DNA from: Tessaracoccus defluvii
Lineage (GTDB): Bacteria > Actinomycetota > Actinomycetes > Propionibacteriales > Propionibacteriaceae
DNA: 64,000 nucleotides
Direction: 5' to 3'
Assembly: GCF_014489575.1 (NCBI RefSeq)
Contig: NZ_CP060789.1
Location: 3,038,001-3,102,000, forward strand
A model generated the notes under the pieces. That model was not told the origin of the DNA and searched no databases. It saw only the letters and a program-made list of their open reading frames with translations. The position numbers and the translations under genes were made by a program. Below are positions 35,375 to 53,202 of this stretch, one piece after another (the stretch's first letter is position 1; the number at the start of each line of letters is the position of its first letter).

Positions 35375-36487
35375 GTGTCGAGCGAGGTTCCCGGGTCCGC
35401 GCGTCTGGTTCTGGCGTCGGGGGTGGTCCATCTCGATGAGCAGGCGGCGGTGTTCGGGGCGATGTTGTCGGGATGGGAACGGCAGCAACGGTCTCGGTTG
35501 CTGGCGGACGCGACGATCGAGCCTCGGGTGGCGTTACTGCGCCGGTTCACCGAGTTCGCCGGATCGTTCCCGTGGCAGTGGAGTGCCGGGGACGTGGAGG
35601 ATTTCACGTTGTCGCTGATGAGTGGCGCGGCGAGGCTGGCACCGTCAACGATCCGCGGCTATCACCTGACGTTGCGGATGTTCTGCGACTACCTGCTCGA
35701 CGGCCGCTATGGGTGGGTGAGCGAGTGTGAGCAGCGGTTCGGGGTGATCCCTTCGCAGGTCTGCCACGACTTCAACACCGTTGCGCATCTCAACGACTAC
35801 GAGGGGCGGCCGGGGCGACGACCGTTCACCTACGACGAGTTGCAGCACCTGTTCGACTTCCTCGACACCCGGGTTGAGCGGGTGCAACGGTCGGGCCGCA
35901 AGGGTGCGTGGGCTGCGTTGCGGGACGCTCAGATGGTCAAGACCTGCTACGCCTACGGGTTGCGGCGTCGGGAGTTGTGCTTACTCGACATCGCGGACCT
36001 GCGTCCGAACCCGCACATGCGTCAGTGGGGAACCTTCGGGGCGGTGCATGTCCGCTACGGCAAGGCGGTCCGCGGCAGTACGCCTCGGCGTCGAACGGTG
36101 CTCACGGTCCCGGAGTTCGACTGGGTGGTCGATGGTCTGCGGCAATGGGTCGAGCAGGCCCGGCCGCTGCTGCGGCCTGATGACCGGGATGCTCTGTGGT
36201 TGACGGAGCGGCGGCAGCGGGTCTCGGTGAAGTCGATGGATAACCGCTTCGCCTGGCTGCGTGAACAGGCCGACCTGGACGCTGACCTGACCCTGCATTG
36301 CCTGCGGCACTCGTATGTGACGCACCTGATCGAGTTCGGTTACCCGGAGCGGTTCGTCACCGAGCAGGTTGGTCACTCCTACGCCTCGACCACGGCGATC
36401 TACACGAACGTGTCCAACGACTTCAAGACCAAGACCTTGAAAGCGGCTCTGGCCCGCGTCTACGACAACACCCAGGAGGAACGATGA
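35375..36487 (+). CDS. Tyrosine recombinase / integrase, first gene of a trio
   Basis: The protein has 370 residues. An N-terminal SAM-like core-binding domain (to about 130) is followed by a catalytic domain with Arg in YAYGLRRRELCLLD, His/Arg in LHCLRHSYVTHLIEFG, His in EQVGHSYASTTAIYTNVS and the Tyr nucleophile in the same segment. All catalytic residues seem present. It starts at a GTG. Its stop overlaps the next gene (ATGA), so the three genes act as one unit, a layout seen in transposon-like tyrosine recombinase modules. Confidence 0.9.
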   Translation: MSSEVPGSARLVLASGVVHLDEQAAVFGAMLSGWERQQRSRLLADATIEPRVALLRRFTEFAGSFPWQWSAGDVEDFTLSLMSGAARLAPSTIRGYHLTLRMFCDYLLDGRYGWVSECEQRFGVIPSQVCHDFNTVAHLNDYEGRPGRRPFTYDELQHLFDFLDTRVERVQRSGRKGAWAALRDAQMVKTCYAYGLRRRELCLLDIADLRPNPHMRQWGTFGAVHVRYGKAVRGSTPRRRTVLTVPEFDWVVDGLRQWVEQARPLLRPDDRDALWLTERRQRVSVKSMDNRFAWLREQADLDADLTLHCLRHSYVTHLIEFGYPERFVTEQVGHSYASTTAIYTNVSNDFKTKTLKAALARVYDNTQEER

Positions 36488-36819
36488 CGAAGAAGCTGTC
36501 GATGCTGTGGCATCTGCGTCAACTGATGGCGGCGAAGGGCATGTTCCAGACCACTGATCTGGTCGAGCCGCTGCACGAGCGCGGGATCGAGTTGTCGCGG
36601 CAGATGGTGCACCGGATCGTCACGAAGCCACCGCAGCGGATCAACACCGACCTACTGGCTGCGCTCTGCGACATCCTGGACTGCACCCCATCCGATCTCC
36701 TGGAACTGCACGTCGAGGAGCACCGCCAGCCACAAGCGGTCAATGACGGCGGGCCAGGGATCGGCGATCTGCGCCCGATCCGCGCGAAGATCAGGCGCCC
36801 CGACGGCGTTTCGGAGTGA
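36484..36819 (+). CDS. XRE/Cro-type HTH protein, second gene of the trio
   Basis: The protein has 111 residues. The HTH is LSRQMVHRIVTKPPQRINTDLLAALCDILDCTPSDLLEL, a Cro/C1 type with the usual CDILDCTPSDLL end. It overlaps the integrase stop by 4 bp and its own stop overlaps the next start (GTGA). In such trios it is presumably the regulator or a directionality factor. Confidence 0.87.
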   Translation: MTKKLSMLWHLRQLMAAKGMFQTTDLVEPLHERGIELSRQMVHRIVTKPPQRINTDLLAALCDILDCTPSDLLELHVEEHRQPQAVNDGGPGIGDLRPIRAKIRRPDGVSE

Positions 36820-38288
36820 CCCGGGCATCCGCGAGCCGCGAGTGCGTGCGCTGCGGCATCTGGGCGACGACGGTGATGCTGCCGACGGGGCCGATCTGCT
36901 ACCTCTGCCGTCGTGACATCGCCTACCACCCAGCTGTCTGCCCGGAGTGCTTCGAGCTGCGTCCGGTCGCCTACCCATCGGTGAGCAGCGACAACGTGCT
37001 GGTCTGCGCCGGATGCGCGGGCGCGGAATCGATCTTCGCCTGCACCGGATGCGGGCGTGAGGACCATCCCTACGCTCGTGATCGTTGCGCCCGCTGCGTC
37101 CTGGCCGAGCGCCTCACCAGCCTGCTCACCGACCCGACCACCGGCGCCGTCCATGAGCGGCTGCAGCCCCTCTTCGACGAGTTGGTCGCCGCCCGCCGTC
37201 CGCAAAGCGTGATCACCTGGCTACAGAAACCGCCCGCGACCGGCGTCAGACTGCTCGACCTCTTGGCCCGCGGTGAGTTGCCCATCAGCCACGACACATT
37301 CCGCGGCCTGCCCGCTGACCGCTCCCACAACTACCTGCGCGACCTCCTCGCCTCGACTGGGGTGCTGCCGCCGTATCACCCGCCGATCGAGCAGATCGAA
37401 CGCTGGCTCGACACCACACTCGAACCCCTGCACGGCGAGGACAAAGGGCTCGTCGGCCGCTACGCCCGCTGGCACCTCCTGCGACGCCTACGCGGCGCCG
37501 CCGACCGCGGGGAGCTGACCAAATCAGCGATCTACAGCGCCCGCGGGAACATCAACGGCGCGGTCCGGCTCGGCCAGTGGGTCGCCCGACACGACACCAC
37601 AATCGCCAGCCTGTCCCAGTCGCAGCTGGAGTCCTACCTCGCCGACTATCCCGGCGCACGCAACAGCCAGCAGAGCTTCGTCGCCTGGCTCGGTCGCGCG
37701 CGAGTGAACACCGCCATCACGATCCCGTGGCGGGGAACCACCATGCCCGAAGTCACGGTCTCCGACGCCGACCGTTGGGACCAGATCAAGACCCTGCTCC
37801 ACGACGACACGATCGCCCTCCACGCCCGCATCGGTGGCCTGTTCACGCTCCTATTCGCTCAACCCCTCGAAACAGTCGTCGCGATGCGCACCGACCAGAT
37901 CACCCTCACCGACGACGACACAGTGCTCGTCACCTTCGATACCGTCGCCATCGAAATGCCGCCCGGACTGGACGACCTCCTCCGCCGCCACCTCGACCGC
38001 CCCGGCAGCCCGTCCATCGCCAGCACCGACCACGGATGGCTGTTCCCCGGCAGACACCCCGGACGCCACCTCGTCAGAGAAACCTTCCGCGGACACCTCG
38101 CCCGCCTCGGCATCCAACCCGGACGCGCCCGCCACGCCGCCATGTTCGCCCTCGCCGGACAGGTTCCCGCGCCCGTCCTCGCCGAACTCATCGGCATCGC
38201 CGACAAGACCGCCACCAAATGGGCCGCCCTCGCCACCCGCGACTGGTCCGAGTACGTCACCCAACGAGACACCTACAAGAACGGCTGA
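36816..38288 (+). CDS. Zinc-ribbon protein with degenerate tyrosine-recombinase-like C-terminus
   Basis: The protein has 490 residues. The first ~100 carry several Cys pairs (CVRCGIW, CYLCRRD, CPECFE, CAGCAG, CTGCGRE, CARC), enough for three or more zinc ribbons. The middle is helical. The C-terminal third has an integrase-like architecture (LFTLLFAQPLETVVAMRTDQI; GRARHAAMFALAGQ; LIGIADKTATKWAALATRDW), but a clear catalytic Tyr and the H-x-x-R box are missing. It may guide the active recombinase encoded two genes upstream. Confidence 0.8.
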   Translation: MTRASASRECVRCGIWATTVMLPTGPICYLCRRDIAYHPAVCPECFELRPVAYPSVSSDNVLVCAGCAGAESIFACTGCGREDHPYARDRCARCVLAERLTSLLTDPTTGAVHERLQPLFDELVAARRPQSVITWLQKPPATGVRLLDLLARGELPISHDTFRGLPADRSHNYLRDLLASTGVLPPYHPPIEQIERWLDTTLEPLHGEDKGLVGRYARWHLLRRLRGAADRGELTKSAIYSARGNINGAVRLGQWVARHDTTIASLSQSQLESYLADYPGARNSQQSFVAWLGRARVNTAITIPWRGTTMPEVTVSDADRWDQIKTLLHDDTIALHARIGGLFTLLFAQPLETVVAMRTDQITLTDDDTVLVTFDTVAIEMPPGLDDLLRRHLDRPGSPSIASTDHGWLFPGRHPGRHLVRETFRGHLARLGIQPGRARHAAMFALAGQVPAPVLAELIGIADKTATKWAALATRDWSEYVTQRDTYKNG

Positions 38289-39501: not shown

Positions 39502-39701
39502 ACCTTGATCTGCAAGACGCGTGATCGTTCGAGGGGCGGGGAATGGGTAGTGATCATCTGCGATGCCGCGTGCCTGTGCGAGGACACTCAGTCGTCCTCT
39601 TCTCTCTCGGTCTCTGGGAAAGCTGGCGTCGTGACCGATAGACTGATGCAGGTCACAATGTCACTACTGGCCGGGCTCCGCTTCGGCGGCGGAGGATTTC
39701 G

Positions 39702-40091
39702 GTGGGGATCGGTCTCGCAGACCTTGCAGGGTTGCTCAACATGGGGCCGCCCATGTATGCGTGGTTCCAGCAGACCGAGGCCGTCGTTGGATTCGCCCCG
39801 CAAAAGCCGAACGCGATGCGCCCGATCATCCTGCGTCACTGGGCCCCGTCTGGCCCCCTGGCATACGTATTCGCGCGCACGTCAAGTCTTGAGCGCGTTG
39901 AGGTACGCAACCCTGCGCATGATCACCGTGAGGAGTGGCCAAAGTGCTGGCTGCACGACGACGGCAACATCGTCGCCTCACGCCCGCTCCCTGTCCTCAA
40001 GGATGCGCTCGACCCAACCCATCGGCTGTGCAGTGAGGACGACCAGGCAACCATCGACGCAGTGAGGGCAGCGCGGTGGCAGACGAAGTAG
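39702..40091 (+). CDS. Unknown protein, first gene of the coupled four-gene unit
   Basis: The protein has 129 residues and starts at GTG 39702 after GGAGG. It contains MRPIILRHWAPSGPLAYVFARTS, EEWPKCWLHDDGNIVASRPLPV and HRLCSEDDQATIDAVRAARW. I do not recognise it. The short beta-rich centre and the closing acidic segment are reminiscent of PemK/MazF-like toxins, but no diagnostic residues support that. It overlaps the sigma-like gene by 16 bp. Confidence 0.7.
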   Translation: MGIGLADLAGLLNMGPPMYAWFQQTEAVVGFAPQKPNAMRPIILRHWAPSGPLAYVFARTSSLERVEVRNPAHDHREEWPKCWLHDDGNIVASRPLPVLKDALDPTHRLCSEDDQATIDAVRAARWQTK

Positions 40092-41089
40092 TAACCGGCG
40101 GCCCGCTTGCAGACATCGACGAGGAGTTCGACCTCGGTGAGGTGGGGGTCGGCGATCTGCAAGCACTCATCGACGAGTATGCCCGGCAGGGCCTCGGTCG
40201 TCTCTGGCTCGACGAGGTCGGGAAGGCGGCTCGGCACCTCGCGCGCCGCTACAGCCCGTGGGCATACGCACGTGCATCGACGTGGGATGACGATGCGATC
40301 AACGATCTGGTCCAGGATGTCGTCGAGCGCATGATCACCAAGGGCCAGGCCGAGTACATCTGCGACACGGCGAACGACTTCGGTCACGCGCGAGCACTGA
40401 TCTATCGCCAAGTGCGGATGACTCTGATCGACCGACGACAGCGCACTGCGGTTGACAACCTGTACGCCCGGGCTGTCGATCGGCTTGGCGAGTCGCCGTT
40501 CGAGCAGGTGAGGACGAAGCCCCGATCCTGGCGACTCACCGGATCAACTGAAGAGGCGACGCCCCCCACCACCCGACTTACTTCCTCGCTTGCGGCGCTC
40601 CCGCGTCTGCCGGGCAACGGAACCGAGCGAGCCAGTGCGATCTGGACGACGGCGACCCTGGGTGATGCGCTCGCCCTCGTGTGCAAGGTGGTCGGCGAGG
40701 TCGAGGAGTCCGATCTCAAGAGAATTTTCGACGAAGCTTTGACAGCCTTCGCAACAGCGGAGGTTGTCTCTGATGACGCCGGTGCTCGAGACCGCTCCGC
40801 CGAACTCGACCCGGGCGAGCTGACTTTGGCGAACGATCTGGCGGAGCGGATCGTCGCGGCGCTCACCAAGGAGGAAGCAACCATGCTGGCTGGTAAGTGG
40901 ATCGGCGACTCGGACGGTGACATCGCGCGCCGCGTCGGAGTCAGCCGTCCTACTGCTGCCAAGTACAAGGACTCCGCGTTCGAGAAGGTTCGTGCTGAAC
41001 TCTCAGACCAGACCGAAGCGCTCATCGACGAAGCATTCGGGCGGCTTCAGTCGCTCGTCATCTGTAAGGCAGAAGGAGGTGCCGCATGA
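40076..41089 (+). CDS. RNA polymerase sigma-factor-like protein
   Basis: The protein has 337 residues. The first half has a sigma region 2-like stretch: WDDDAINDLVQDVVERMI, then ARALIYRQVRMTLIDRRQRT. The C-terminus has a region 4-like HTH: IVAALTKEEATMLAGKWIGDSD followed by GDIARRVGVSRPTAAKYKDS. The ~150 residues between are longer than in ordinary ECF sigma factors. It overlaps both neighbours (16 bp and ATGA), so it is made together with an unknown protein and an AAA ATPase. It might redirect transcription or have been recruited as a DNA-binding sensor. Confidence 0.75.
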   Translation: MADEVVTGGPLADIDEEFDLGEVGVGDLQALIDEYARQGLGRLWLDEVGKAARHLARRYSPWAYARASTWDDDAINDLVQDVVERMITKGQAEYICDTANDFGHARALIYRQVRMTLIDRRQRTAVDNLYARAVDRLGESPFEQVRTKPRSWRLTGSTEEATPPTTRLTSSLAALPRLPGNGTERASAIWTTATLGDALALVCKVVGEVEESDLKRIFDEALTAFATAEVVSDDAGARDRSAELDPGELTLANDLAERIVAALTKEEATMLAGKWIGDSDGDIARRVGVSRPTAAKYKDSAFEKVRAELSDQTEALIDEAFGRLQSLVICKAEGGAA

Positions 41090-41985
41090 CCGAGATTGGA
41101 GTTGGCGGTATCTACCGTACGGTCGCGATGGACCGGAACACACCCTCCGCGCTCGTCCTCGTGACTGATGTTGACTCGTCTACGCAATCCGTCACGGTCA
41201 CACTCCTCAGCCCAGATATAGAGTTCGGAAGCAACACCGACCTTGTCCTGACAGGCAACGAGATCGGCCGCGCCTACGACCTGCTCGCTGAATCGGACAT
41301 TTTCGGCTACGCCTGGTTCGTCCAGCTGGATCGACGCGTCGGACGCGTGGACACGGACGTACTCCAAGCACTCAATGCTCTCCGCGACGAGGAAGCGGTT
41401 GACCGACCACTCGCGGGCCCACCTGTAGTCGAGCGGACGGACCCGCGGTGGAGCTTCAAGGTTCACGAACTGAAGCGGCTCCAGACTCTCACAGCGGACT
41501 GCACGCGCGACCTCATCGATGGCGATCGAGTCCCGGAAGTCGATGCGAACGCGCTGCGGGTGCCGGCGACCGAGGCGGAGAAGGAAGCCTTCGAGGAGTT
41601 TGTCGTCGGGGCTGTTGAGGAAGCCAAGCGGGGAGCAGCTCGGATTCCTGGATGGCTTGTCGAGATCGCTATCGACGAGGGGCTCCGAGATGCGTACCGC
41701 GCTGCCGGGCTGTTCAACGCGCTTCGCCTTCTGATGAAGTACGCGGACACGGCTTGCGTTCCCAACGCGGTGCCAACCGGGACGACGCTCGGCGCGTATG
41801 CGGAGCTTCAGGTCGAATACGCCGCGTCGGCTGGCTACTCAAACATTTGGCTCCTCGGCCGCTCGACTGACATTCGCGGCCCGATAGAGGCGCGCCCGGC
41901 GCGCACGCGCACCGGTCGCCTCATCCAGGTCACCCACGTCTCCGCCATCGCGCACGTCACCCAGTACCGAGAGGTCTACGCATGA
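41086..41985 (+). CDS. Unknown protein, third gene of the coupled unit
   Basis: The protein has 299 residues. The N-terminal ~100 are beta-rich (IGVGGIYRTVAMD, ALVLVTDVDSSTQSVTVTLLS), compatible with a small barrel. The rest is helical, ending in HVSAIAHVTQYREVYA. It contains FGYAWFVQLDRRVGRV and IPGWLVEIAIDEGLRDAYRAAG. I cannot assign a family. Four-base overlaps with the sigma-like gene before it and the ATPase gene after it indicate fixed stoichiometry in one complex or pathway. Confidence 0.75.
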   Translation: MTEIGVGGIYRTVAMDRNTPSALVLVTDVDSSTQSVTVTLLSPDIEFGSNTDLVLTGNEIGRAYDLLAESDIFGYAWFVQLDRRVGRVDTDVLQALNALRDEEAVDRPLAGPPVVERTDPRWSFKVHELKRLQTLTADCTRDLIDGDRVPEVDANALRVPATEAEKEAFEEFVVGAVEEAKRGAARIPGWLVEIAIDEGLRDAYRAAGLFNALRLLMKYADTACVPNAVPTGTTLGAYAELQVEYAASAGYSNIWLLGRSTDIRGPIEARPARTRTGRLIQVTHVSAIAHVTQYREVYA

Positions 41986-43826
41986 GCAATCCCATCTTCG
42001 AGCGCCGGGTACCGTTCGCGACGCGACGTGGAATCAGCCTTCGGCGGTGGCGGCTCCAGAACTTCAAGTCCGTGCGGGACGCCGAGGTTGAACTCCGACC
42101 ACTCACCGTGGTTGTCGGTGCGAACAGCGCCGGCAAGAGCACGCTTCTCCAGAGCATTCGGGCAGCAAGCCAGGCAACGAGCACGGCGGGATATCTCTAT
42201 CCCCTCAACGGACGCGGGGTTCGGCTCGGTACGGTTACCGAAGTCAGATACCGTGGTCCGAGCAGCGACGACGAACCGCTCATAATCGGAGCGGACTTCG
42301 AGATTCGGGCACCTCGCGGGATGTATCGCGATGGCAGGGCTGTTGGCTCTGCGCAAACGGCTCCGGTGCTTGCGACCCTGTCATGGGAGGTCAAGCTTGG
42401 TGAGTCGTCGCAGCAGAAGGGCATCGCGAAAATCGAACGCCTCAACGTCGACTTGAAGCCTGCGGATCACGACGCACTCCCGCGGCAAGCGCCTCGTCTT
42501 GACCGGGCATGGGTGCTCGCCATAGCTGACGACGACGCCGAGGATCTGGTGCCGCTGGACGAAGACGACGATGCGCGCTCAATCCCGCACTACTTCTCTG
42601 GCCAGTTCGCTGGGGCAAATGGCAACCTGCTTGAGGTCGCGGACATCCTCGTCGAAGGCGGGTTTCCGCTGGATGCCTCGGTGATGCGTTCCCGTGCTGA
42701 AGTCCTCTTCGAGACCTGGCGCGACATGCTGCTGCGCCGCTCGATCCACGAGCGTGACGAAGTTGAGCATGACCTGCTCACGGTGGTGAACGCGATTGAC
42801 GAGGTGAGCCGGGTACTTCTGGAGGTGCACGCCGCCGTCGCGGAATCCAAGAGCGAATACGCCGATGCTGTTCGATTCGAGTTAAGTTCGAAGTCACCCG
42901 AGACGCGCACAAGGTTCGACCTCAACATCGCATCGTCGGAGAGCTTCGGCGATGAAGTAGTCAAGGAACTGACGAAGGGTGGTGTGCAGGGCGAGGTCCC
43001 GTTCCCTCATCGTCTGGACGATCTCGGCAGGGCGTCGAATCTCGCGTCCTCGTACCTCAGAAGCGGAATTCGGTACCTCGGTCCGCTCCGTGAGGAACCG
43101 CGTGCTGCCTACCCCGACTCGCCCGAAGGCGACGACAGTTATGTCGGCGCCAAGGGCGAGTTCACCGCATCTGTGCTGCAACGCCACGGTGACCGAAAGG
43201 TCAGCGTTCCGACCCCAGACGATGAGGGAGCGATCAAGACCCCCCGCCGCCCGATTCAGCTCATGACGGCCGTGAGCCGCTGGGCGAAGTATCTCGACAT
43301 CGGCGAGAGCTTCTCAGTCTCCGACCAGGGGCGCTTCGGCATCCAGATGCAGGTGAGGCAAGCGGATGTCGAGGGAGACCTAGACCTCACCAGCGTCGGC
43401 ACTGGCGTCAGCCAGTTGCTGCCCGTGATCGTGATGTGCGTTCAGGCCCCGGCAGGCTCGCTTCTGCTCATCGAGCAGCCCGAACTTCACTTGAACCCGA
43501 AGGTGCAGCAGCGACTGGCCGACTTCCTGTTGGCGATGGCGCAGAGCGGTCGGCACCTGATCGTCGAGACGCACAGCGAGTACCTCATCTCGCGGCTCCG
43601 GAGGCGAGTCGCGGAGGATGAGAAGGACAGCCTCCAGGACACGATCGGCATCTACTTTGCTAAGCGCGTGAACGGGGCGACCACCTACGATCTGGTGCAG
43701 CAGAACGAGTTCGGTGGCATCGAGGAGTGGCCGGAGAACTTCTTCGACCAAGCCACCGAGGAGGAGCACGCGATCCTCTCCGCGGCGGTCAAGAAGCGCC
43801 GTGCGAAGGCCGCAAGGGTCGAGTAG
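41982..43826 (+). CDS. AAA-family ATPase, DUF3696-type (OLD/RecF-like)
   Basis: The protein has 614 residues. The N-terminus has LRRWRLQNFKSVRDAEVELR and Walker A VVGANSAGKSTLLQSI near residue 45. After a long coiled insert come GTGVSQLLPVIVMCV (signature), LLLIEQPELHLNPKVQQRLADFL (Walker B) and LIVETHSEYLISRLRRRV. The last ~80 residues (IGIYFAKRVNGATTYDLVQQNEFGGI) match the DUF3696 tail. No TOPRIM nuclease domain is visible, unlike OLD or GajA. Such ATPases often serve in phage defence. It overlaps the preceding gene by 4 bp and lies 89 bp before hsdM. Confidence 0.88.
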   Translation: MSNPIFERRVPFATRRGISLRRWRLQNFKSVRDAEVELRPLTVVVGANSAGKSTLLQSIRAASQATSTAGYLYPLNGRGVRLGTVTEVRYRGPSSDDEPLIIGADFEIRAPRGMYRDGRAVGSAQTAPVLATLSWEVKLGESSQQKGIAKIERLNVDLKPADHDALPRQAPRLDRAWVLAIADDDAEDLVPLDEDDDARSIPHYFSGQFAGANGNLLEVADILVEGGFPLDASVMRSRAEVLFETWRDMLLRRSIHERDEVEHDLLTVVNAIDEVSRVLLEVHAAVAESKSEYADAVRFELSSKSPETRTRFDLNIASSESFGDEVVKELTKGGVQGEVPFPHRLDDLGRASNLASSYLRSGIRYLGPLREEPRAAYPDSPEGDDSYVGAKGEFTASVLQRHGDRKVSVPTPDDEGAIKTPRRPIQLMTAVSRWAKYLDIGESFSVSDQGRFGIQMQVRQADVEGDLDLTSVGTGVSQLLPVIVMCVQAPAGSLLLIEQPELHLNPKVQQRLADFLLAMAQSGRHLIVETHSEYLISRLRRRVAEDEKDSLQDTIGIYFAKRVNGATTYDLVQQNEFGGIEEWPENFFDQATEEEHAILSAAVKKRRAKAARVE

Positions 43827-43915
43827 CTACCCCCTTTACATCGACCCAGCCAAGCCGGATTGGTCTTGACGTCGGGCCGAGAGGCAATGACAACCAGCAA
43901 GAAGGGAGGCGCCGT

Positions 43916-45484
43916 ATGGCACGAATTGCACGCAAGATCGAGACGAAGACTCTGGAGCAGAAGCTCTGGGATGCCGCCGACGCCCTGCGCGGAAACCAGG
44001 AGCCAAGCGAGTACAAGCACGTCGTGCTCGGCTTGGTTTTCCTCAAGTACATCTCCGACCGGTTCGAGGGCCGCCGCAAGGAGATTGAAGCGGAACTCCT
44101 CGCCGACGGCCTGAAGCCCGAGCAGATCGAGCGCCTCGTTGAGGACCGAGACGAGTACACCAGCAACTCCGTCTTTTGGGTGCCCGCCGCAGCGCGGTGG
44201 AGCGTCATCCAGAAGAGCGCGAAGCAGCCTGAGGTCGGCGAGTCGATCGACAACGCGATGGACCTCATCGAGCGGGAGAACCCGAAGCTGCGCGGAGTAC
44301 TGCCCCGCAACTACGGCCGCGAGGACCTCGACAAAGGTCGACTCGGTCAACTCGTCGACATCATCGGCTCGATCGGCTTCACCCAGAGCGATGACCACGG
44401 TTCCGACGACGTGCTCGGCCGCGTGTACGAGTACTTCCTCGGTCAGTTCGCGGGCAAGGAGACCGGCAAGGACGCTGGCGCGTTCTACACCCCGCGCTCC
44501 GTCGTCAAGACGCTCGTCGAGATGCTGGAGCCCTACCACGGTCGCGTCTTCGATCCGGCGTGCGGATCGGGCGGCATGTTTGTACAGTCCGCCGAATTCG
44601 TGAATGCCCACGGCGGCAAGCGCAACGACATCTCCGTCTACGGCCAGGAGTTCACTGCGACCACCTGGAAGCTCGCGAAGATGAACCTTGCTCTGCGCGG
44701 CATCGACGCCGACCTCGGCGACAGGTCAGCGGACTCCTTCACCCAGGACCTCCATCCGGACCTACGCGCCGACTACGTCATCGCGAACCCACCGTTCAAC
44801 GTCTCCGATTGGTGGAACGCGAAGCTCGCCGACGATCCCCGATGGAAGTACGGCACGCCTCCCGAGGGCAATGCGAACTTCGCTTGGGTGCAGCACTTCA
44901 TTTTTCACCTCAGCCCTCGTGGCACTGCAGGCTTCGTGCTGGCGAATGGCTCGCTCAGCTCCAGAACTAATGGCGAAGGTGAAATACGCCGCAAGCTTGT
45001 CGAGGCTGATCTCGTCGACTGCATCGTCGCGATGCCCGACAAGCTGTTCTTCAACACCGGCATTCCGGTCAGCCTCTGGTTTGTCAGCCGCGATCGTGGC
45101 GGCAACGCCCAGCACCGGGCACGCAAGGGTGAGGTGCTGTTCATCGACGCACGCAAGCTCGGCAGCATGGTCAACCGCCGACTCCGCGAGCTATCCGACG
45201 ACGACATCCGGCGGATCACCGGTGCGTACCACTCCTGGCGGAACCACGACGGTGGCTATGGAGACGTCGCCGGCTTCACAAAGGCATCATCGTTCGAGGA
45301 GATCCAAGAGCACAGTTTTGTCCTTACTCCGGGTCGCTACGTCGGCACGGAAGAGGCCGAAATTGATGACGAACCAATCGACGAGAGGATCGAGCGTCTG
45401 ACAACTGAGCTGATCGCGGAGTTCGACCGTGGACGCCAACTTGAAGGCCTTATCCGGCAACGACTGGAGGCGCTAGCGCCGTGA
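43916..45484 (+). CDS. hsdM: Type I restriction-modification DNA methyltransferase HsdM
   Basis: The protein has 522 residues from ATG 43916, preceded by GGGAGG. An N-terminal HsdM helical domain (TLEQKLWDAADALRGN) is followed by the N6-adenine methylase: GAFYTPRSVVKTLVEML, FDPACGSGGMFVQSAEF (SAM site) and the catalytic YVIANPPFNVSDWW. It methylates the target adenine and is needed for restriction. It is followed by hsdS with a 4-bp overlap. Confidence 0.96.
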   Translation: MARIARKIETKTLEQKLWDAADALRGNQEPSEYKHVVLGLVFLKYISDRFEGRRKEIEAELLADGLKPEQIERLVEDRDEYTSNSVFWVPAAARWSVIQKSAKQPEVGESIDNAMDLIERENPKLRGVLPRNYGREDLDKGRLGQLVDIIGSIGFTQSDDHGSDDVLGRVYEYFLGQFAGKETGKDAGAFYTPRSVVKTLVEMLEPYHGRVFDPACGSGGMFVQSAEFVNAHGGKRNDISVYGQEFTATTWKLAKMNLALRGIDADLGDRSADSFTQDLHPDLRADYVIANPPFNVSDWWNAKLADDPRWKYGTPPEGNANFAWVQHFIFHLSPRGTAGFVLANGSLSSRTNGEGEIRRKLVEADLVDCIVAMPDKLFFNTGIPVSLWFVSRDRGGNAQHRARKGEVLFIDARKLGSMVNRRLRELSDDDIRRITGAYHSWRNHDGGYGDVAGFTKASSFEEIQEHSFVLTPGRYVGTEEAEIDDEPIDERIERLTTELIAEFDRGRQLEGLIRQRLEALAP

Positions 45485-46698
45485 CGCAGACTTCGGCGCC
45501 GATGCGTACCCTTGTTCGTCATGCGGTTGGCGGTGGCTGGGGCCACGCCGAACCCGGGGACGACACTGCGCAGGTAGCGATCATCCGCGGAGCGGACTTC
45601 CCCGCAGTGGCTGTTGGTGACACATCGAGGGTTCCTCGAAGGTGGGAAGCTTCAAAGAAGCTCCCCTCCCGGACCCTGTGTCCGGGCGACATCATTCTGG
45701 AGATCTCCGGCGGCTCGTCTGACAGGCCCACCGGCCGCACCGTCTTCGTAAGTGAGCGCCTGCTGAACAGCTTCGAGTGCCCGGTCATCCCCGCAAGCTT
45801 CTGCAGGCTCGTTCGGGTTGACTCGACCCAGGCTGACCCCTACTACGTCTACTGGTGGTTGCAGGGAATGTATGCCGATGGTCGAACCTGGGGGTACCAG
45901 AATCGATCAACGGGTATCGCGAACTTCCAGTTTGAGTACTTTCTCGACGCGGAGACGGTCACTCTGCCGCCCATCGAGGAGCAGCGTGCGATCGCAGCCA
46001 CTCTTGGTACGCTCGATGACAAGATCGAGGCGAATCACCGCCAGCGTAGACTCCTGCGAAGCCTGGGGGCGGCGCTATTTACCAAGGCGCTTATTTGCGG
46101 TGGAGTTCAACGCCCGCTCAAGGCCGTAACTACGAGCATTGCTCGTGGGATCGCACCCAAGTATGCCGACGATGACGCTAACGCCCCACTCGTCCTGAAC
46201 CAGAAGTGTATCCGCGGCGGATGGGTGTCTCTAGTGCCAGCGCGACGAACGCAAGGCAGGACTGTGGCCCCTGCGAAGATCGCATCGGGTGGTGACATCC
46301 TAGTGAACTCGACTGGAGTCGGCACGCTCGGGCGAGTTGCCCGATGGCACGAAGGCTCAATTCTTGTTGACAGCCACGTCTCAGTGATCAAGCCTGACCC
46401 CGCAGAAGTTGGCCCCGTAACGCTCGGATACGCACTGCTCGCGCTCCAGCCCGAACTCGAGGCCTTGGGCGAGGGCAGCACCGGACAGACTGAACTCAAC
46501 CCGACTCGGCTCGGAGAATTCGGAGTTCTCCTTCCGCGCGACACAAAGTTGAATGGCCTTGAGGATGTGCTGGTTGCCCTAGAACGCCGTGCCAGTCTTG
46601 TTGCTGACGAGAATGATCGATTGGCAGCAGTGCGCAACACGCTGCTTCCAGCACTTGTACTGGGTCGGGTTCGCGTACCCGTTGAGGAGGCGGTGTGA
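45481..46698 (+). CDS. hsdS: Type I restriction-modification specificity subunit HsdS
   Basis: The protein has 405 residues starting at GTG in the overlap GTGA. Two target-recognition domains are each followed by a helical spacer: LPPIEEQRAIAATLGTLDDKIEANHRQRRLLRSLG in the middle and VALERRASLVADENDRLAAVRNTLLPALVLGRV at the end. These conserved spacers orient the two half-sites of a bipartite target. The half-sites themselves cannot be read from sequence. Confidence 0.94.
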   Translation: MTQTSAPMRTLVRHAVGGGWGHAEPGDDTAQVAIIRGADFPAVAVGDTSRVPRRWEASKKLPSRTLCPGDIILEISGGSSDRPTGRTVFVSERLLNSFECPVIPASFCRLVRVDSTQADPYYVYWWLQGMYADGRTWGYQNRSTGIANFQFEYFLDAETVTLPPIEEQRAIAATLGTLDDKIEANHRQRRLLRSLGAALFTKALICGGVQRPLKAVTTSIARGIAPKYADDDANAPLVLNQKCIRGGWVSLVPARRTQGRTVAPAKIASGGDILVNSTGVGTLGRVARWHEGSILVDSHVSVIKPDPAEVGPVTLGYALLALQPELEALGEGSTGQTELNPTRLGEFGVLLPRDTKLNGLEDVLVALERRASLVADENDRLAAVRNTLLPALVLGRVRVPVEEAV

Positions 46699-47408
46699 GC
46701 ACTATCGACAGCTTCTGGGCGATCCAGGAACTCGAAGCCTTCGTTCACGCCTCGGGTACGGATGGGATGTATCAACGGGAGCCCGACGAGGTCGTCGCCG
46801 AGCGTGCGCACGTCGTCGAGCAGATTCTCGACAGGTCACTCCCGGGGTGGCGGGATCGGGCTGACCAGCGGTCACAGAAGCTCCGTAAGTACGAGCCATG
46901 GGGCCATCTACGCGATGCTGCGAGCCGGGGTATTGCAGCGCTCAAGCGGCAGGACGAACTGCGGGAGAAGCTGGGCGATGATGCGCCGTTGATCTCGGCG
47001 GCTCGGCTGCACCCGTGGGTCTGGGGCGGCGCTCGCTCTCTATGGCAGTCGGGCCACTATAGGTCGGCTGTCGAGGATGCCGCGAAGAAGGTCAATGCAG
47101 AAACGCAGAACAAGGTCGGTCGACGCAATGTGAGCGAGACGAAGCTCTTTCAGGAGTCGTTTAGCGACAAGGCAGCCGAGCCTGGCAAGGCTCGGCTGCG
47201 TCGGATGAAGGACGACGGCAGCGACACATACAAGTCGGTACAACGTGGTGCGATGGCGCTGGCTGAGGGCATCTACTCCGGCATCCGCAACCCGTTCAAT
47301 CACGAAGACCCGAAGGAGATCGACGAGCAGACCGCGCTGGAGCATCTCGCGGCGCTCAGCGTGCTCGCCCGTTGGGTCGATGATGCGCAGGTCGAGAAGG
47401 AAGCATGA
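46695..47408 (+). CDS. TIGR02391-family protein (HEPN-like) inside the RM operon
   Basis: The protein has 237 residues. The C-terminal half matches TIGR02391: LHPWVWGGARSLWQSGHYRSAVEDAAKKVN, VSETKLFQESFSDKA and GIYSGIRNPFNHED. The R-NPFN-H stretch is an R-x4-H HEPN site. It overlaps hsdS and hsdR by 4 bp each, so it is fixed in the operon. It may be an abortive-infection RNase that fires when restriction fails. Confidence 0.85.
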   Translation: MSTIDSFWAIQELEAFVHASGTDGMYQREPDEVVAERAHVVEQILDRSLPGWRDRADQRSQKLRKYEPWGHLRDAASRGIAALKRQDELREKLGDDAPLISAARLHPWVWGGARSLWQSGHYRSAVEDAAKKVNAETQNKVGRRNVSETKLFQESFSDKAAEPGKARLRRMKDDGSDTYKSVQRGAMALAEGIYSGIRNPFNHEDPKEIDEQTALEHLAALSVLARWVDDAQVEKEA

Positions 47409-50400
47409 GCAAACTCAATGAGTCCGTCGTCGAGCAGGCCGCACTGGAGTGGCTTGCCGACCTCGGCTACCAGGCCCTCCACGGACCGGACATCTCGCCC
47501 GGCGGTGACGGCGCGCAACTACGTGATTCGTTCACCGACGTGGTACTGATCGATCGACTGCTCCCTATCGTGCGCGCGCTCAATGCCGGTGTCGACAGCA
47601 CGGTCATCGACCAGGCGATCAAGCGCCTGCTGCGCCCGGAGTCACAGAACCCGGTCGATGAAAACTACCGTATTCACCAGTTCCTCATCGGGGGTGTTCC
47701 CGTCGAGCACCGCGGTACGGACGGCCAGGTTCGCACGATCCGGGTGAAGCTCATCGACTTCGAAACCCCGGTAATGAACGACTGGCTCGCGGTCAGCCAG
47801 TTCACCGTGACGAAGGACGGCAAGAACCGCCGCCCCGACGTGGTCGTGTTCGTCAATGGGATGCCGCTGGCGCTGTTCGAACTGAAGAATCCTGCCGACG
47901 AGAACGCCGACATGAAGGGGGCCTGGAACCAGGTCCAGACCTACCGCCACGACATCGCGCCGATCTTCGACTTCAACGCCGTCACCGTGATCTCCGACGG
48001 TGTGCCTAGCGCCGCCATGAGTTCGTTCACCGGTGCTTTCGAACACTATGCCCCGTGGAAGACGATCGACGGCCGGGATGTCATCACCGACCGTCCCTCC
48101 CTTGAGGTGCTCATCCGGGGTGTGTTCGATCCAGGTCGATTCCTCGACATCCTTCGCAACTTCGTCGTCTTCAGCGACGAGACCGTCACCGACAAGACCA
48201 CGGGCCAGCCGATGCGCTCGCTCGTTAAGCGCGTCGCGAAGTACCACCAATATTGGGCGGTGAACACTGCTGTTGAGTCGACCGTGAAGGCAGCGAGCCC
48301 CGAGGGCGACAAGCGCGGCGGCGTCGTGTGGCACACCCAGGGCTCGGGCAAGAGCTTCGAGATGGTGTTCTACGCGGCGAAGATCATGCGCGACCCGCGC
48401 ATGGAGAACCCGACGCTGGTCTTCATCACCGACCGGAACGACCTCGACGATCAGCTCTTCGGCGAGACCTTCGCGCCCGCGACTATCCTCCCCGAGCGGC
48501 CGGTCCAGGCGGAGAATCGCGCCCACCTGCGCGAGCTACTGAAGGTCGCATCCGGCGGCATCATCTTCACCACGTTGCAGAAGTTCGCCCCCGAGGAGCA
48601 GGGCGACACGAACCCGGTCCTGACTGACCGGCGGAACGTGATCGTTGTGGCCGATGAGGCTCACCGCTCCCAGTACGGCTTCAGCGAAACCCTCGACTCC
48701 GAAGGGCGGCTCAAGGCCGGCCTCGCGAAGCACATGCGCGACGCACTCCCCGGCGCGACCTGCCTCGGCTTCACCGGCACCCCGATCGAGACGACCGACA
48801 AGTCGACGCGCGCCGTGTTCGGCGACTACATCGACATCTACGACCTCACCCGGGCCGTCGAGGATGGGGCCACCGTCAAGATCTTCTACGAGCCCAAGCT
48901 CGTGAAGGTCGGGCTCAGCGAGAAGATCGAGGCGGAACTTGATGACCTCGCCGACGAGATCACCGAACAGGTCGAAGAGACTGCGGCCTCGGCCGCGAAG
49001 TCGCGCTGGGCGCGACTCGAAGCGATCGTCGGGGCGGAGGAGCGCCTCGAATTGGTCGCCAGCGAGATCGTCGAGCACTGGGAGAAGCGCCGCGAGTCGA
49101 TGATCGGCAAGGGCATGATCGTTGCCATGAGCCGTCGCATCGCCGTCGAGCTCTACGAAAAGATCGTTGCCCTGCGGCCAGACTGGCACAGTGACGATCA
49201 CAAGACCGGCAAGATCAAGGTGATCATGACGGGGTCTGCGGCCGACCCGCAGGAGTATCAGCCGCACCTGTACGACAAGGCCACCCGCAAGGAGATCCAG
49301 CTCCGCGCCAAGAACCCCGAGGACGAACTGGAACTCGTCATCGTGCGCGACATGTGGCTCACCGGCTTCGACGCTCCGGCCATGCACACGATGTACGTCG
49401 ACAAGACGATGCAGGGTGCGGGCCTCATGCAGGCGATCGCCCGAGTCAACCGCACCTTTCGTGACAAGCCGGGCGGGCTCATCGTCGACCTCATCGGCGT
49501 GTACGCCAGCCTCCAGGAGGCACTCAAGGTCTACTCCCCGTCCGACCGCGATCAGGCGGGCGTGCCGATCGACGAGATGGTCGCCGTCATGCTGGAAAAG
49601 CACGACATCGTCACGTCCCTCCTGCACGGCGTCACCTTCGACTCCTCTCCCGACCTCGCAGCTGCCGACCGCCTGGCGCAGTACGCCAAGGTGCTCGACT
49701 TTGTCATGGCCGACCCCGATCGTACGAAACGCTACAACGACCAGGTGCTCGCGCTGGCCAAGACCTTCGCGCTGTGCGGCGCGAGCGACGAGGCCGCCGC
49801 CATTCGCAACGACGTGAGACTCTTCGTCGACGTGCGGGCGGCCATTCTCAAGGTGCTCGACCCCGGTTCGGGACGCAGCGGCTCAGGGGCGGTTGACGTC
49901 GACACCGCAATCGGGCAGCTCGTCAACGAGGCAGTCTCAGGCGATCAGGTGATCGACATCTACAAGCTCGCTGGCGTCGAGACGCCAGAGCTGTCGATCC
50001 TGTCCGACGAGTTCCTTGACGGACTCGCCGACAAGGACAAGCCGAACCTCCAGATCGGCCTCCTGAGGCGCTTGCTCGACGACCGAATCCGCACGATCAA
50101 GCGCAGCAATGTCGTGCAGACCCGCAAGTTCTCCGAAATGCTCGACGAGGCGATCAACCGGTACAACAACCGGTCGCTCACGTCGGCCGAGATCATCGCC
50201 GAGCTGGTCACGCTCGCCAAGCAAATGCGCGCCGATATGCAGCGGCACGCCGCCCTCGGCCTCCGCGAGGACGAGATCGCCTTCTACGACGCCGTCGCGC
50301 AGAATGGGTCAGCCGTCACGGAACTCGGCGACGAGACGCTGAAGGTGATCGCGCGCGCGCTGATGCGTACGATCCGAGACAACTGGACGATCGACTGGGA

Positions 50401-50554
50401 CGTTAAGGAAAGCGTGCGCGCCAAGATGCGTTCGGCCGTCCGCCGCATACTCGTCCGCTACGACTACCCGCCCGACGCGGAACTTGAGGCGATTGAGCTG
50501 GTCATTGAGCAGGCTGAAATCTTCGCCGCCGACGAGGAGGAATTCCCTTACTGA
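47405..50554 (+). CDS. hsdR: Type I restriction endonuclease subunit HsdR
   Basis: The protein has 1,049 residues. The N-terminal nuclease has the PD-(D/E)xK pattern RRPDVVVFVNGMPLALFELK. The translocase motor has Walker A VVWHTQGSGKSFEMVFYAAK, the DEAH box VVADEAHRSQYGF, FTGTPIETTDKS and the later VRDMWLTGFDAPAMHTMYVDK and QAIARVNRTF. It translocates DNA and cuts unmodified phage DNA with HsdM and HsdS. All parts are intact. Confidence 0.96.
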   Translation: MSKLNESVVEQAALEWLADLGYQALHGPDISPGGDGAQLRDSFTDVVLIDRLLPIVRALNAGVDSTVIDQAIKRLLRPESQNPVDENYRIHQFLIGGVPVEHRGTDGQVRTIRVKLIDFETPVMNDWLAVSQFTVTKDGKNRRPDVVVFVNGMPLALFELKNPADENADMKGAWNQVQTYRHDIAPIFDFNAVTVISDGVPSAAMSSFTGAFEHYAPWKTIDGRDVITDRPSLEVLIRGVFDPGRFLDILRNFVVFSDETVTDKTTGQPMRSLVKRVAKYHQYWAVNTAVESTVKAASPEGDKRGGVVWHTQGSGKSFEMVFYAAKIMRDPRMENPTLVFITDRNDLDDQLFGETFAPATILPERPVQAENRAHLRELLKVASGGIIFTTLQKFAPEEQGDTNPVLTDRRNVIVVADEAHRSQYGFSETLDSEGRLKAGLAKHMRDALPGATCLGFTGTPIETTDKSTRAVFGDYIDIYDLTRAVEDGATVKIFYEPKLVKVGLSEKIEAELDDLADEITEQVEETAASAAKSRWARLEAIVGAEERLELVASEIVEHWEKRRESMIGKGMIVAMSRRIAVELYEKIVALRPDWHSDDHKTGKIKVIMTGSAADPQEYQPHLYDKATRKEIQLRAKNPEDELELVIVRDMWLTGFDAPAMHTMYVDKTMQGAGLMQAIARVNRTFRDKPGGLIVDLIGVYASLQEALKVYSPSDRDQAGVPIDEMVAVMLEKHDIVTSLLHGVTFDSSPDLAAADRLAQYAKVLDFVMADPDRTKRYNDQVLALAKTFALCGASDEAAAIRNDVRLFVDVRAAILKVLDPGSGRSGSGAVDVDTAIGQLVNEAVSGDQVIDIYKLAGVETPELSILSDEFLDGLADKDKPNLQIGLLRRLLDDRIRTIKRSNVVQTRKFSEMLDEAINRYNNRSLTSAEIIAELVTLAKQMRADMQRHAALGLREDEIAFYDAVAQNGSAVTELGDETLKVIARALMRTIRDNWTIDWDVKESVRAKMRSAVRRILVRYDYPPDAELEAIELVIEQAEIFAADEEEFPY

Positions 50555-50614: not shown

Positions 50615-52030
50615 ATGGACGAGATTAAGTGCCCGCACTGCGGGACGGTGTTCACCATCGATGAGGCGCAGTACGCCAACATCGCTGCGCAGGTACGCAC
50701 AAAGGAGTTCGATCATGAACTCCACTCTCGGCTCGCGGAGGCCGAGAAGGCCAAGCAGACAGAGATCGCGCTGGCTGAGGCAAGGGTCGCCCAGCAGGCA
50801 CAGCAGGCTGCCGCTCAGAAGGACGCCGAGATCCAGCGGCTGAAGAACGAGATCGAGGGCGCGGAGAACGCCCAGTCCCTCGCAATCGCAGAGGCCGCTA
50901 AGGAGACACAACAGGCGCTCGGCGAGAAGGAAGCGCAGATCGAACGGCTCAAGGCTGAGATCGAAAGCGCAGGTACCGCGCAGCAGCTCGCGGTCACGAA
51001 GGCTTCCGAGGCGGCGCATCGGACGGCGGCCGAGAAGGACGCCGAGATTATGCGGCTACGCGCCGAGATCGAGAAGGCGGGCACCAGTCAGGAGCTCGCG
51101 GTCACGAAGGCGGTCTCCGTACTGCAGCAGACGCTCACCGAGGCCGAGAGCAAGCTCGCGCTCCAGGTGGCCGAGCAGCAGGTGAAGGAGTCGTCACTCA
51201 AGGAGTCGCACTCGAAGGAGATCGCGCTCCTCCAGGAGCAGGTCGAGCAGTACCGCGACTTCAAGGCCAAGCAGTCGGTGAAGCTCCTCGGCGAGTCACT
51301 CGAACAACACTGCGCGACCGAGTTCAACCGCGTCCGCGCGATGGCCTTCCCGAACGCCAGGTTTGGCAAGGACAACGACGCGTCCAGCGGAACCAAGGGC
51401 GACTACATCTTCCGTGACTTCAGCGCCGATGGCGTCGAGTACATCTCGATCATGTTCGACATGAAGAATGAGGCCGACACCACAGCCACCAAGAAGAAGA
51501 ACGTCGACTTCCTAGCGAAGCTCGACAAGGACCGCCGTGAGAAGGGCTGCGAGTACGCCGTGCTCGTGTCCATGCTCGAAGAGGACTCCGAGCTGTACAC
51601 CGGCATTACGGACGTCTCCCACGAGTACCCGAAGATGTTCGTCGTCCGGCCGCAGTTCTTCCTCGCCATCATCGCGCTGCTCCGCGGAGCCGCGCAGGAG
51701 ACCATCCAGGTGAAGGCCGAGCTGGAACAGATCAAGAAGCAGAACGTCGACATCACGAACTTCGAGGCCGACCTCGAAGACTTCAAGTCGGCGTTCGGCC
51801 GCAACTACGACCTCGCGAAGCGCAAGTTCGACACCGCCATCGAAGACATCGACAAGGCCATCGAGCGCCTCCAGAGGGTCAAGGAGGGACTCCTCGGCTC
51901 CGGGAACAACCTCCGCCTCGCCAACGATAAGGCCACGGTCCTCACCGTCAAGAAGCTCACACTTGGAAACGAGACGATGGCGCAGAAGTTCGCCGAACTT
52001 GATCCGTCGCAGGAGCCTGAGGCAGCTTAG
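50615..52030 (+). CDS. DUF2130 domain protein with long coiled coil
   Basis: The protein has 471 residues. It begins with a zinc-knuckle-like [13 protein letters not shown], then a coiled coil of ~200 residues with repeated motifs ([42 protein letters not shown]). The DUF2130 core follows: [26 protein letters not shown] and [23 protein letters not shown]2130 has a nuclease-like fold and is frequent in defence islands. GGAAGGAGG precedes the ATG. It begins 60 bp after hsdR. Confidence 0.9.
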
Positions 52031-52038
52031 TAATCATC

Positions 52039-52081: not shown

Positions 52082-52109
52082 TGTCAGTACCTCCAGGGAG
52101 AATTGCCGC

Positions 52110-52898: not shown

Positions 52899-52921
52899 GG
52901 GCTCTGCACCTCTGGGTTGCG

Positions 52922-53197: not shown

Positions 53198-53202
53198 AGC
53201 TG

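Follow-up and report, generated by a model that had tools for sequence, protein, structure and literature searches.

What do four overlapping genes, one encoding a sigma-like protein and another an OLD/ABC-type ATPase, do directly upstream of a type I restriction operon? The question is raised by a locus of Tessaracoccus defluvii, within a stretch of 64,000 nucleotides (contig NZ_CP060789.1) that is here called the window. The four genes, g1 to g4, and their parts are as follows.

39702..40091, + strand: g1, 129 aa, GTG start (open reading frame list)
40076..41089, + strand: g2, 337 aa, GTG start, sigma-like (open reading frame list)
40229..40447, + strand: sigma region 2-like segment of g2, residues 52 to 124 (hhalign, residue columns, weak PHROG match)
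40808..41011, + strand: helix-turn-helix (HTH) of g2, sigma region 4-like or LuxR-like, residues 245 to 312 (hhalign, PDB profiles, Pfam)
41086..41985, + strand: g3, 299 aa, ATG start, two-part protein (open reading frame list)
41095..41379, + strand: PemK/MazF-like N-terminal segment of g3, residues 4 to 98, without the RP motif (hhalign)
41982..43826, + strand: g4, 614 aa, ATG start, OLD/ABC-type AAA ATPase with C-terminal DUF3696 (open reading frame list and Pfam)
42117..42143, + strand: GANSAGKST of g4, which we take to be the Walker A motif (read from the translation)
43641..43760, + strand: DUF3696 segment of g4, residues 554 to 593 (Pfam PF12476, 8.3e-7, 29.6 bits against a cut-off of 22)

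The four genes are conserved with type I restriction-modification genes

A first-pass annotation of this DNA had proposed that the four genes overlap in series and form one unit whose homologues should co-occur. Consistent with that proposal, overlaps of 16, 4, and 4 bp (g1/g2, g2/g3, and g3/g4) were found at these coordinates and were identical in five further loci from a genome scan (L002 to L006), each of which carried g1 to g4 together and in the same order. As the overlaps were the same in the window and in all five loci, the pattern is not due to chance. The scan returned 94 stretches matching the search pattern, 5 of which were relatives and 89 of which were not, and the five loci represent about four lineages, as L005 and L006 are near-identical; L007 and L009 repeat L004 and L005. 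Homologues numbered 29 for g1, 65 for g2, and 68 for g3, and as a rough proxy for co-occurrence, 14 of the 29 contig-length labels of g1 relatives were also in both the g2 and the g3 lists. The 32 bp before g1 were conserved across loci; a stem-loop covering the ribosome-binding site of g1, an idea taken from that conservation, was rejected when the stem was seen by eye to be broken in L005 and L006.

Immediately downstream of g4 lie four more genes.

43916..45484, + strand: hsdM, type I methyltransferase (PADLOC MTase_I 2.2e-189; NCBIfam hsdM below cut-off)
45481..46698, + strand: hsdS, specificity subunit, hypervariable (position and variability; no NCBIfam match)
46695..47408, + strand: TIGR02391 protein, variable passenger (NCBIfam)
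47405..50554, + strand: hsdR, type I restriction subunit (TIGR00348 1.5e-170, above cut-off; PADLOC)

The three genes by which a type I system is recognized, hsdM, hsdS, and hsdR, were thus found in one operon in the window, and the first-pass annotation was right to place the unit directly upstream of it; it had not counted these genes as part of the conserved unit. The distance from the end of g4 to the start of hsdM was 89 to 93 bp in 5/5 loci, and the gap was partly conserved in 6/6 loci. Identity to the window across the five loci was 88 to 89% for hsdM, 89 to 92% for hsdR, and 83 to 86% for g4, and 71 to 76%, 68 to 70%, and 62 to 69% for g1, g2, and g3, respectively. hsdS of the same loci reached 27.6 to 29.4% over 252 to 351 aa, and the TIGR02391 protein was near full length in three of the five (two of these near-identical), gave a 73-aa match in L002, and had no match in L003. 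Five window genes upstream of g1 had no match at 1e-5 in L002 to L006, where the upstream DNA compared was 361 bp in L005 and 3144 bp in L006 and the comparison ran as far as hsdR. As hsdM followed in 5/5 loci and hsdR was 89 to 92% identical, we conclude from sequence comparison that the type I genes and the four-gene module are an eight-gene cassette that is co-inherited.

Close and less close relatives of hsdM were then distinguished by the module. Among 382 genomes of the order (top three hsdM and top two hsdR candidates scored per genome), the three hsdM proteins at 88 to 100% identity all had g4 upstream, two of them (G236 and G301) being from the genomes of L004 and L005, and the ten at 76 to 79% had no module gene in the 1500-bp upstream flank. 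One of those ten (G353, L147) lacked the first 123 residues of hsdM and adjoined what by eye was a transposase-like open reading frame. For hsdR, three proteins were at 90 to 100% and the other 11 at 51 to 73%.

g2 resembles both sigma factors and LuxR-type regulators

The sigma-like character attributed to g2 at first pass held at the level of profiles, where both segments exceeded 60/60 shuffles. In hhalign with 20 sigma proteins from the order (a set in which L119 and L120 are the same sequence), residues 25 to 150 scored 27.4 and residues 150 to 337 scored 45.5, compared with maxima of 18.8 and 19.5 in 60 column shuffles each and a maximum of 20.1 in cross-family controls, in which parts of the module were aligned with the wrong family or with each other. 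The region 2 similarity was moderate (hhalign probability 26% for the segment by itself and 47% as part of the whole alignment), and the region 4-like part reached 90% in a comparison with sigma proteins alone. Moreover, in the motif D77-x-x-Q80-D81, Q80 was present in 21/21 rows and D77 and D81 each in 20/21; these residues presumably fall where region 2.2 touches the clamp of the polymerase. A weak PHROG sigma match covered residues 54 to 123 (E 0.038), and 4 of the 65 homologues are named sigma24 family protein by JGI.

No Pfam sigma model passed its curated cut-off on g2, and the HTH was equally LuxR-like. Among 19 family members, GerE matched 17 (best 7e-6), Sigma70_r4 matched 5 (best 0.034), Sigma70_ECF matched 3 (best 0.072), and the Pfam region 2 models matched none. 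A PDB profile search with the HTH returned sigma chains at 0.0037 and 0.0067 and the LuxR-type VpsT at 0.01. The distant g2 of L051 (see below) matched Sigma70_r4 at 8.8e-5 (22.4 bits, cut-off 24.1), GerE at 0.016, and phage sigma families in PHROG at 1.2e-7 and 5.3e-6. In two further surveys, the only match, at E 1e-5 or weaker, was to the HTH stretch in 22/26 and 13/15 of the matching genomes, which we did not count as family. Like extracytoplasmic function (ECF) sigma factors, g2 has a region 2-like and then a region 4-like segment; unlike them, it separates the two by about 120 residues, falls below all Pfam sigma cut-offs, and has an HTH that is as close to LuxR-type domains. As the HTH favours GerE (17/19 versus 5/19) and GerE is a precomputed domain in 3 of the 65 relatives, g2 could be an ordinary regulator. 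Because GerE outscored the sigma models in the 19 members, we lowered our estimate that g2 binds RNA polymerase from even odds to slightly short of them.

If g2 were a sigma factor or an HTH regulator devoted to this locus, it might switch on the hsd (or BREX) genes under the control of the ATPase, g1, and g3, such that the module would time restriction and include no effector. The sigma-like and LuxR-like segments, the retained region 2 residues with their presumed contact role, the position of the unit directly upstream of hsdM or brxA, and the partly conserved g4-hsdM gap would all suit such a role. No promoter-like element common to the 32 bp before g1 and that gap was seen by eye, however, and the ten hsdM relatives at 76 to 79% have no module in the upstream flank. 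To our knowledge, it would also be unusual for an OLD/ABC ATPase to regulate a sigma factor, which counts against this role, and we consider the role unlikely.

Distant units and a BREX-linked case

Two distant units, L050 and L051, kept the order g1 to g4, and neither L050 (20 kb) nor L051 (7.9 kb) contained a match to the hsdM or hsdR of the window. The L050 contig ends after g4, which puts the neighbour on that side outside the sequence. The one BREX-linked case found was L051: its unit is followed directly downstream by BrxA (PADLOC 2.8e-31), by a BrxB that Pfam matched weakly (0.0078) and PADLOC did not match, and by BrxC (PADLOC 1.4e-59). This copy had been missed at first pass. In the window, no Brx model was among the matches listed for the eight proteins scanned (the best 25 in two of the lists).

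Among 17 genomes of the family and 27 of the class of the BREX-linked genome, only that genome itself matched; g2 had no match in plasmids and phages, nor had the g2 of L050 and L051 in plasmids; and 58 stretches of viral contigs matched the search pattern, none of them a relative. In the mycobacterial family, 0/301 species genomes matched at E 1e-15 in a run that included no known positive, such that the zero shows nothing, and g2 homologue clusters from named mycobacteria exist.

The unit could also defend by itself and merely be a frequent neighbour of restriction genes, as defence genes cluster in islands anyway and the two distant units had no match to the hsd genes of the window. In L002 to L006, however, hsdM and hsdR were no less conserved than the module and upstream genes were not in common, and thus a co-inherited cassette fits better than chance neighbourhood. 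We regard an independent unit as improbable.

g3 and g1

Residues 1 to 105 of g3 matched PemK over 93 columns with a probability of 54%, compared with 0.2 to 0.33% for wrong-family and reversed controls, and the N-terminal segment scored 28.9 in hhalign against a shuffle maximum of 16.3. This PemK/MazF-like N-terminus was absent from the first-pass annotation. Other set-ups, built without the too-short loci L076 and L088, gave 21% (whole alignment) and 1.7% (shallower alignment). The PemK Pfam model had no match among 23 g3 family members, and MazF chains were absent from the PDB profile search matches. The RP and TS motifs (conserved Arg and Thr/Ser), which are typical of PemK/MazF catalysis, were not kept in the g3 alignment, and D119-x-R121-W122-x2-K125-x2-E128 was invariant in 15/15 rows. 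In g1, W21, R59, H73, C82, and C110 were invariant in 14/14 rows; the protein had no PADLOC or PDB match and only weak Pfam matches (best 0.053), and a PemK-like assignment was rejected as its score was reached by 2/60 shuffles. Structure prediction, put forward earlier as a route to these two proteins, yielded AlphaFold models with pLDDT values of 43.0 (g1) and 55.7 (g3), too low for a fold search.

Related DUF3696 ATPases occurred in 11 plasmid records, and a partner gene directly followed the ATPase in 5/5 loci read, with HEC-03A matching the partner in two (L164 and L165). That g3 is a toxic RNase effector released by the g4 ATPase, with g2 only a DNA-binding autoregulator, would agree with these pairs, with the 4-bp g3/g4 overlap, and with the PemK match above its controls, but as the catalytic motifs are not kept, the PemK signal is weaker or absent elsewhere, and g3 precedes the ATPase rather than following it, this is more improbable still.

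A possible guard mechanism

AAA_15, AAA_21, and DUF3696 all exceeded their Pfam cut-offs in g4 and no nuclease domain did, in agreement with its earlier description as a DUF3696-type AAA ATPase without a nuclease. Nothing in g1 to g3 passed a Pfam cut-off, and no nuclease that could serve as effector was identified in the unit. We prefer to read the four genes as an add-on defence module that is joined to modification-based defence and acts as a guard through the sigma-like g2, and we assign this reading a probability of roughly 0.43; that the unit is an add-on defence module is, taken separately, very probable.

Comparison of the loci establishes the association with modification-based defences; the mechanism that we propose is as follows. 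g1 to g4 would form one complex in which the g4 ATPase holds the other proteins inactive and senses infection. The most likely trigger would be that a phage inhibitor blocks restriction or that a restriction complex stalls, by analogy with AriA of PARIS and Ocr; an anti-restriction trigger as such is doubtful. ATP-driven rearrangement might then free g2, which would bind RNA polymerase via region 2 and DNA via its HTH and stop or redirect transcription, and g1 and the PemK/MazF-like barrel of g3 could be partners or secondary effectors. Stated in full, with the OLD/ABC ATPase guarding both type I restriction-modification and BREX and, upon infection or when restriction is inhibited, freeing a sigma-like protein to commandeer the host RNA polymerase, such that transcription itself is the effector and no nuclease is needed, the proposal is distinctly unlikely.

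In the parts of a recent survey available to us, guard modules beside BREX use nuclease effectors (PMC12839542), and finding a conserved, overlapping unit with a sigma-like protein there instead hints that RNA polymerase may be the point of action. Alternatively, the locus could represent a restriction system switched by its own sigma-like factor. We know of neither a polymerase-targeting guard nor a restriction system with such a switch. The same four genes beside BREX hint at a portable part serving modification-based defences in general. Literature matches, which covered the field in part, included no description of such a unit among those listed and do not establish that it is undescribed; the unit gives the impression of an add-on defence module of a new kind.

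Comparison with known systems

Among g1 to g4, defence models matched g4 alone: NsnB (5.7e-67), HEC-03B (1.5e-53), PDC-M55A (4.6e-45), and AriA (1.1e-25), with no gene-for-gene match to Menshen, PARIS, or HEC-03. NsnB was also the best model for the distant g4 copies (4e-71 and 2.7e-63), and g1, g2, and g3 matched no PADLOC model at E 1. The suggested relationship to Menshen, which the accessible part of a review (PMC10952713) presents as the pairing of a DUF262 gene and a predicted OLD nuclease, therefore failed as a matter of membership. NsnA (DUF262) had no match in g1 to g3, two upstream genes, or hsdR and was not among the matches listed for g4 (best 25 of 136) and hsdM (best 25 of 35); the model did match elsewhere, on a Rhodococcus plasmid (L162). 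For NsnC or another OLD-type nuclease gene, g1 to g3 gave no PADLOC match and no Pfam match above cut-off. Where Menshen has NsnA and NsnC, the window thus has a sigma-like, a PemK-like, and an unassigned protein, and its unit is joined to type I restriction-modification.

The PADLOC candidates HEC-03 and PDC-M55 share with the unit the ATPase matched by their B and A models, respectively, but no HEC-03A partner was found in g1 to g3, whereas that model did match on L164 and L165. PARIS shares an ABC-type ATPase, AriA matching g4 more weakly than NsnB did, and senses Ocr and can ride with BREX systems according to the portions of PMC12839542 seen here. It differs in that g1 to g3, three other proteins, gave no match to AriB (TOPRIM) and in that the ATPase of the window is the last of four genes. 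We conclude that, as judged by gene content, the unit is not Menshen, PARIS, or HEC-03.

OLD-ABC backup effector modules are known from BREX, BR, and RM-like systems; Rakesh and Krishnan (2026; PMC12839542) describe those placed next to BREX and in the same portions note earlier reports of OLD-ABC with endonucleases in RM-like systems. In those modules the ATPase pairs with TOPRIM, HNH, PD-(D/E)XK, or PIN nucleases, and the portions seen describe no sigma-like partner. In both cases, as L051 illustrates for the present unit, an OLD-ABC ATPase module sits against BREX genes.

A four-gene module is co-inherited with one type I restriction-modification (R-M) lineage

The window corresponds to bases 3038001-3102000 of a 3.86 Mb single-contig genome and contains the following features.

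35375-38288, just 5′ of the cassette, recombinase trio in overlapping order: XerC-like tyrosine recombinase, small XRE-like ORF, second recombinase-like ORF (the last two named by eye)
39670-39701, 32 bp immediately 5′ of the g1 start
39702-43826, module of four ORFs head to tail, overlapping by 16, 4, and 4 bp: g1 (unassigned), g2 (sigma-like), g3 (PemK/MazF-like N terminus), g4 (OLD/ABC-type ATPase)
39702-50554, eight-gene cassette of about 10.9 kb: the module plus hsdM, hsdS, a TIGR02391 protein, and hsdR
43827-43915, gap between g4 and hsdM
50615-54983, after hsdR: coiled-coil protein (DUF2130-like), TIR-like protein, IS256-like transposase

Homologues of the first three genes were found in a protein collection at E ≤0.001 (29 for g1 and, with the best 8000 candidates scored, at least 65 for g2 and at least 68 for g3), and those named were actinobacteria, including Humibacter, Microbacterium, Agromyces, Cellulomonas, Nocardioides, Mycobacterium, and related genera. 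When the length of the longest contig served as a rough label for each genome, 17 of the 29 g1 labels were shared with the g2 list, 16 with the g3 list, and 14 with both. One genome-collection scan with the g2 alignment returned five loci (L002-L006). In each, g1 to g4 keep their order and overlap by precisely 16, 4, and 4 bp, as in the window, and hsdM starts 89 to 93 bp 3′ of g4. Next came a divergent hsdS, a near full-length TIGR02391 protein in three of the five, and hsdR. Matches in L005 and L006 were near-identical and were counted as approximately one lineage. Identity to the window was 88 to 89% for hsdM and 89 to 92% for hsdR; 83 to 86% for g4, 71 to 76% for g1, 68 to 70% for g2, and 62 to 69% for g3; and 27.6 to 29.4% over the matched part for hsdS. 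That g1 to g3 are less conserved than the R-M genes is compatible with their contacting phage factors, though it does not prove such contact. Five window genes 5′ of the cassette (two recombinase-like, a small ORF, a 151-aa ORF, and TetR) had no match at 1e-5 in L002-L006, of which L005 offers only 361 bp on that side. We conclude that the conserved object is the eight-gene cassette.

The 32 bp before g1 are strongly conserved across the window and L002-L006, with little conservation further upstream, and may be a mobile-cassette edge or a leader element. The g4-hsdM gap is near-constant in length and partly conserved in the six loci, and is perhaps the promoter or leader of hsdM. The genes after hsdR, named by eye, look like more of a defence island.

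As a control, hsdM was searched in 382 genomes of the order at E ≤1e-200, with the top three candidates scored per genome, and was matched in 13. Three genomes, including those of L004 and L005, carried hsdM at 88 to 100% identity, each with g4 directly upstream. Ten carried hsdM at 76 to 79% (truncated in genome G353) and lacked g1-g4 within the 1500-bp flank; none was among the g2 matches of a 391-genome search, whose list of searched genomes names G059 but not the other nine. Matches to hsdR, in 14 of the 382, fell into three at 90 to 100% and eleven at 51 to 73%. Because g4 was upstream only of 88 to 100% hsdM and hsdR was similarly split, we conclude that the module marks one type I lineage.

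A distant unit is associated with BREX

Full-length g2 was found in 4 of 391 genomes in one whole-genome search and in 2 of 396 in a second, own genome included in each, and together the searches yielded two further units, L050 (genome G165) and L051 (genome G517). L050 contains the four genes in order (matched-part identity of 46, 31, 37, and 39% for g1 to g4), and its contig stops 398 bp past g4. Divergent on the other side of that module, an E2-ThiF gene and a JAB gene form a ubiquitin-like conjugation set (L050:4907-7299). In L051, g2, g3, and g4 were found by tblastn and g1 by position and a 32% alignment only. Directly 3′ of g4 in L051 is BrxA (PADLOC, 2.8e-31; without a Pfam match). The next ORF resembles BrxB weakly in Pfam (0.0078, under the cut-off) and has no match in PADLOC, and the third is BrxC (PADLOC, 1.4e-59), truncated where the contig stops. 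Module genes of both units overlap or abut, depending on the chosen start codon. A 255-aa fragment for which no family was found ends about 20 bp before g1 in L051 (7162-7929) and may share an operon with the BREX-linked module. Searches of the mycobacterial family (301 genomes), the G517 family (17 genomes), and the class of G517 (27 genomes) yielded no further copy, nor did searches of plasmids, phages, and viral contigs. We conclude that g1-g4 are one co-inherited unit with a defence-class OLD/ABC ATPase and sigma-like segments, tied to one type I lineage and once to BREX.

g2 contains sigma-like segments

The g2 alignment (21 rows) was divided in two, residues 25-150 and residues 150-337, and each part was run in hhalign against 20 sigma proteins (including one identical pair) that had been collected through region 2 matches in genomes of the order. 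The parts, which follow each other as they would in a sigma factor, scored 27.4 and 45.5 (maxima of 60 shuffles each, 18.8 and 19.5), and 24.4 and 40.8 against a second sigma set. Reversed alignments and a PemK alignment scored 9 to 15, and the top unrelated pair, g1 against the sigma set, scored 20.1. A PDB profile search placed two sigma chains first (0.0037 and 0.0067), then the LuxR-type VpsT (0.01). The L051 g2 matched phage sigma families (PHROG, 1.2e-7 and 5.3e-6) and fell slightly below the cut-off for Sigma70_r4 (8.8e-5), and 4 of 65 g2 relatives carry the JGI name sigma24 family protein. Q80 is kept in all 21 rows and D77 and D81 in 20, a stretch with which sigma factors make contact with the polymerase clamp.

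The sigma reading is weakened because no Pfam sigma model reached cut-off on g2, because GerE (LuxR) matched 17 of 19 g2 members versus 5 of 19 for Sigma70_r4, and because the region 2-like part alone had an hhalign probability of 26%. GerE is also a precomputed domain in 3 of the 65 relatives. In view of the GerE and Sigma70_r4 member counts, we put the probability of RNA polymerase binding by g2 at 0.45, down from 0.5 and slightly short of even odds, and reduced the related odds a little as well. A serious rival is that g2 is a regulator that switches on the hsd genes.

g4 keeps its ATPase motifs, and the N terminus of g3 may resemble PemK/MazF

Pfam assigned AAA_15 and AAA_21 to g4, with DUF3696 at the C terminus, and PADLOC ranked NsnB (Menshen) first, followed by HEC-03B, PDC-M55A, and AriA (PARIS). 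Walker A (GANSAGKST), Walker B (IEQPELHL), and the switch (ETHSEYL) are intact, the latter two assigned by eye. A related ATPase occurred in 11 plasmid records, and in all five examined the partner gene directly follows the ATPase; two partners matched HEC-03A and three had no PADLOC match. Unlike in those five loci, g4 is last of four and the candidate partners g1-g3 precede it. In an Aeromonas and Rhodococcus plasmid pair (L164:5371-7999 and L165:5356-7918), a DUF3696 ATPase, a HEC-03A protein (PIN-like by eye), and an RNA ligase family protein are consecutive, possibly a cut-and-repair set.

In hhalign, residues 1-105 of g3 matched PemK/MazF toxins from the order across 93 columns (score, 28.9; shuffle maximum, 16.3) with a probability of 54%, versus 0.2 to 0.33% for wrong-family and reversed controls; the whole alignment gave 21% and a shallower one 1.7%. 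PemK/MazF was not found for g3 in Pfam or PDB searches. Because g3 lacks the RP and TS positions, its barrel may have no activity, or may serve for binding and not for cleavage. The other half of g3, with no known relative, contains a D-x-RW-x2-K-x2-E stretch invariant in 15 of 15 rows. In g1, W, R, H, and two C residues are invariant (14 of 14 rows), and family, structure, and hhalign comparisons gave only weak, chance-level matches. AlphaFold models (pLDDT, 55.7 for g3 and 43.0 for g1) were left out of the argument.

Proposed mechanism and comparison with known systems

Gene overlaps and co-inheritance suggest that g1-g4 would form one complex. By analogy with PARIS, g4 would act as the sensor. 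For g2, the proposed target is RNA polymerase. In PARIS the ATPase senses Ocr, and modules occur beside BREX, according to PMC12839542, which also notes earlier reports of RM-like systems in which OLD-ABC ATPases accompany nucleases. In the portions of the literature searched, which included PMC10952713, PMC10568477, PMC12839542, and PMC12704722 but not the 2025 Menshen paper (gkaf357), no module with an OLD ATPase or a link to R-M was described as containing a sigma-like protein. We conclude that g1-g4 are a real, conserved module tied to modification-based defence, and that it appears to belong to a known kind of ATPase-centred accessory modules but has an unusual component, the sigma-like protein.
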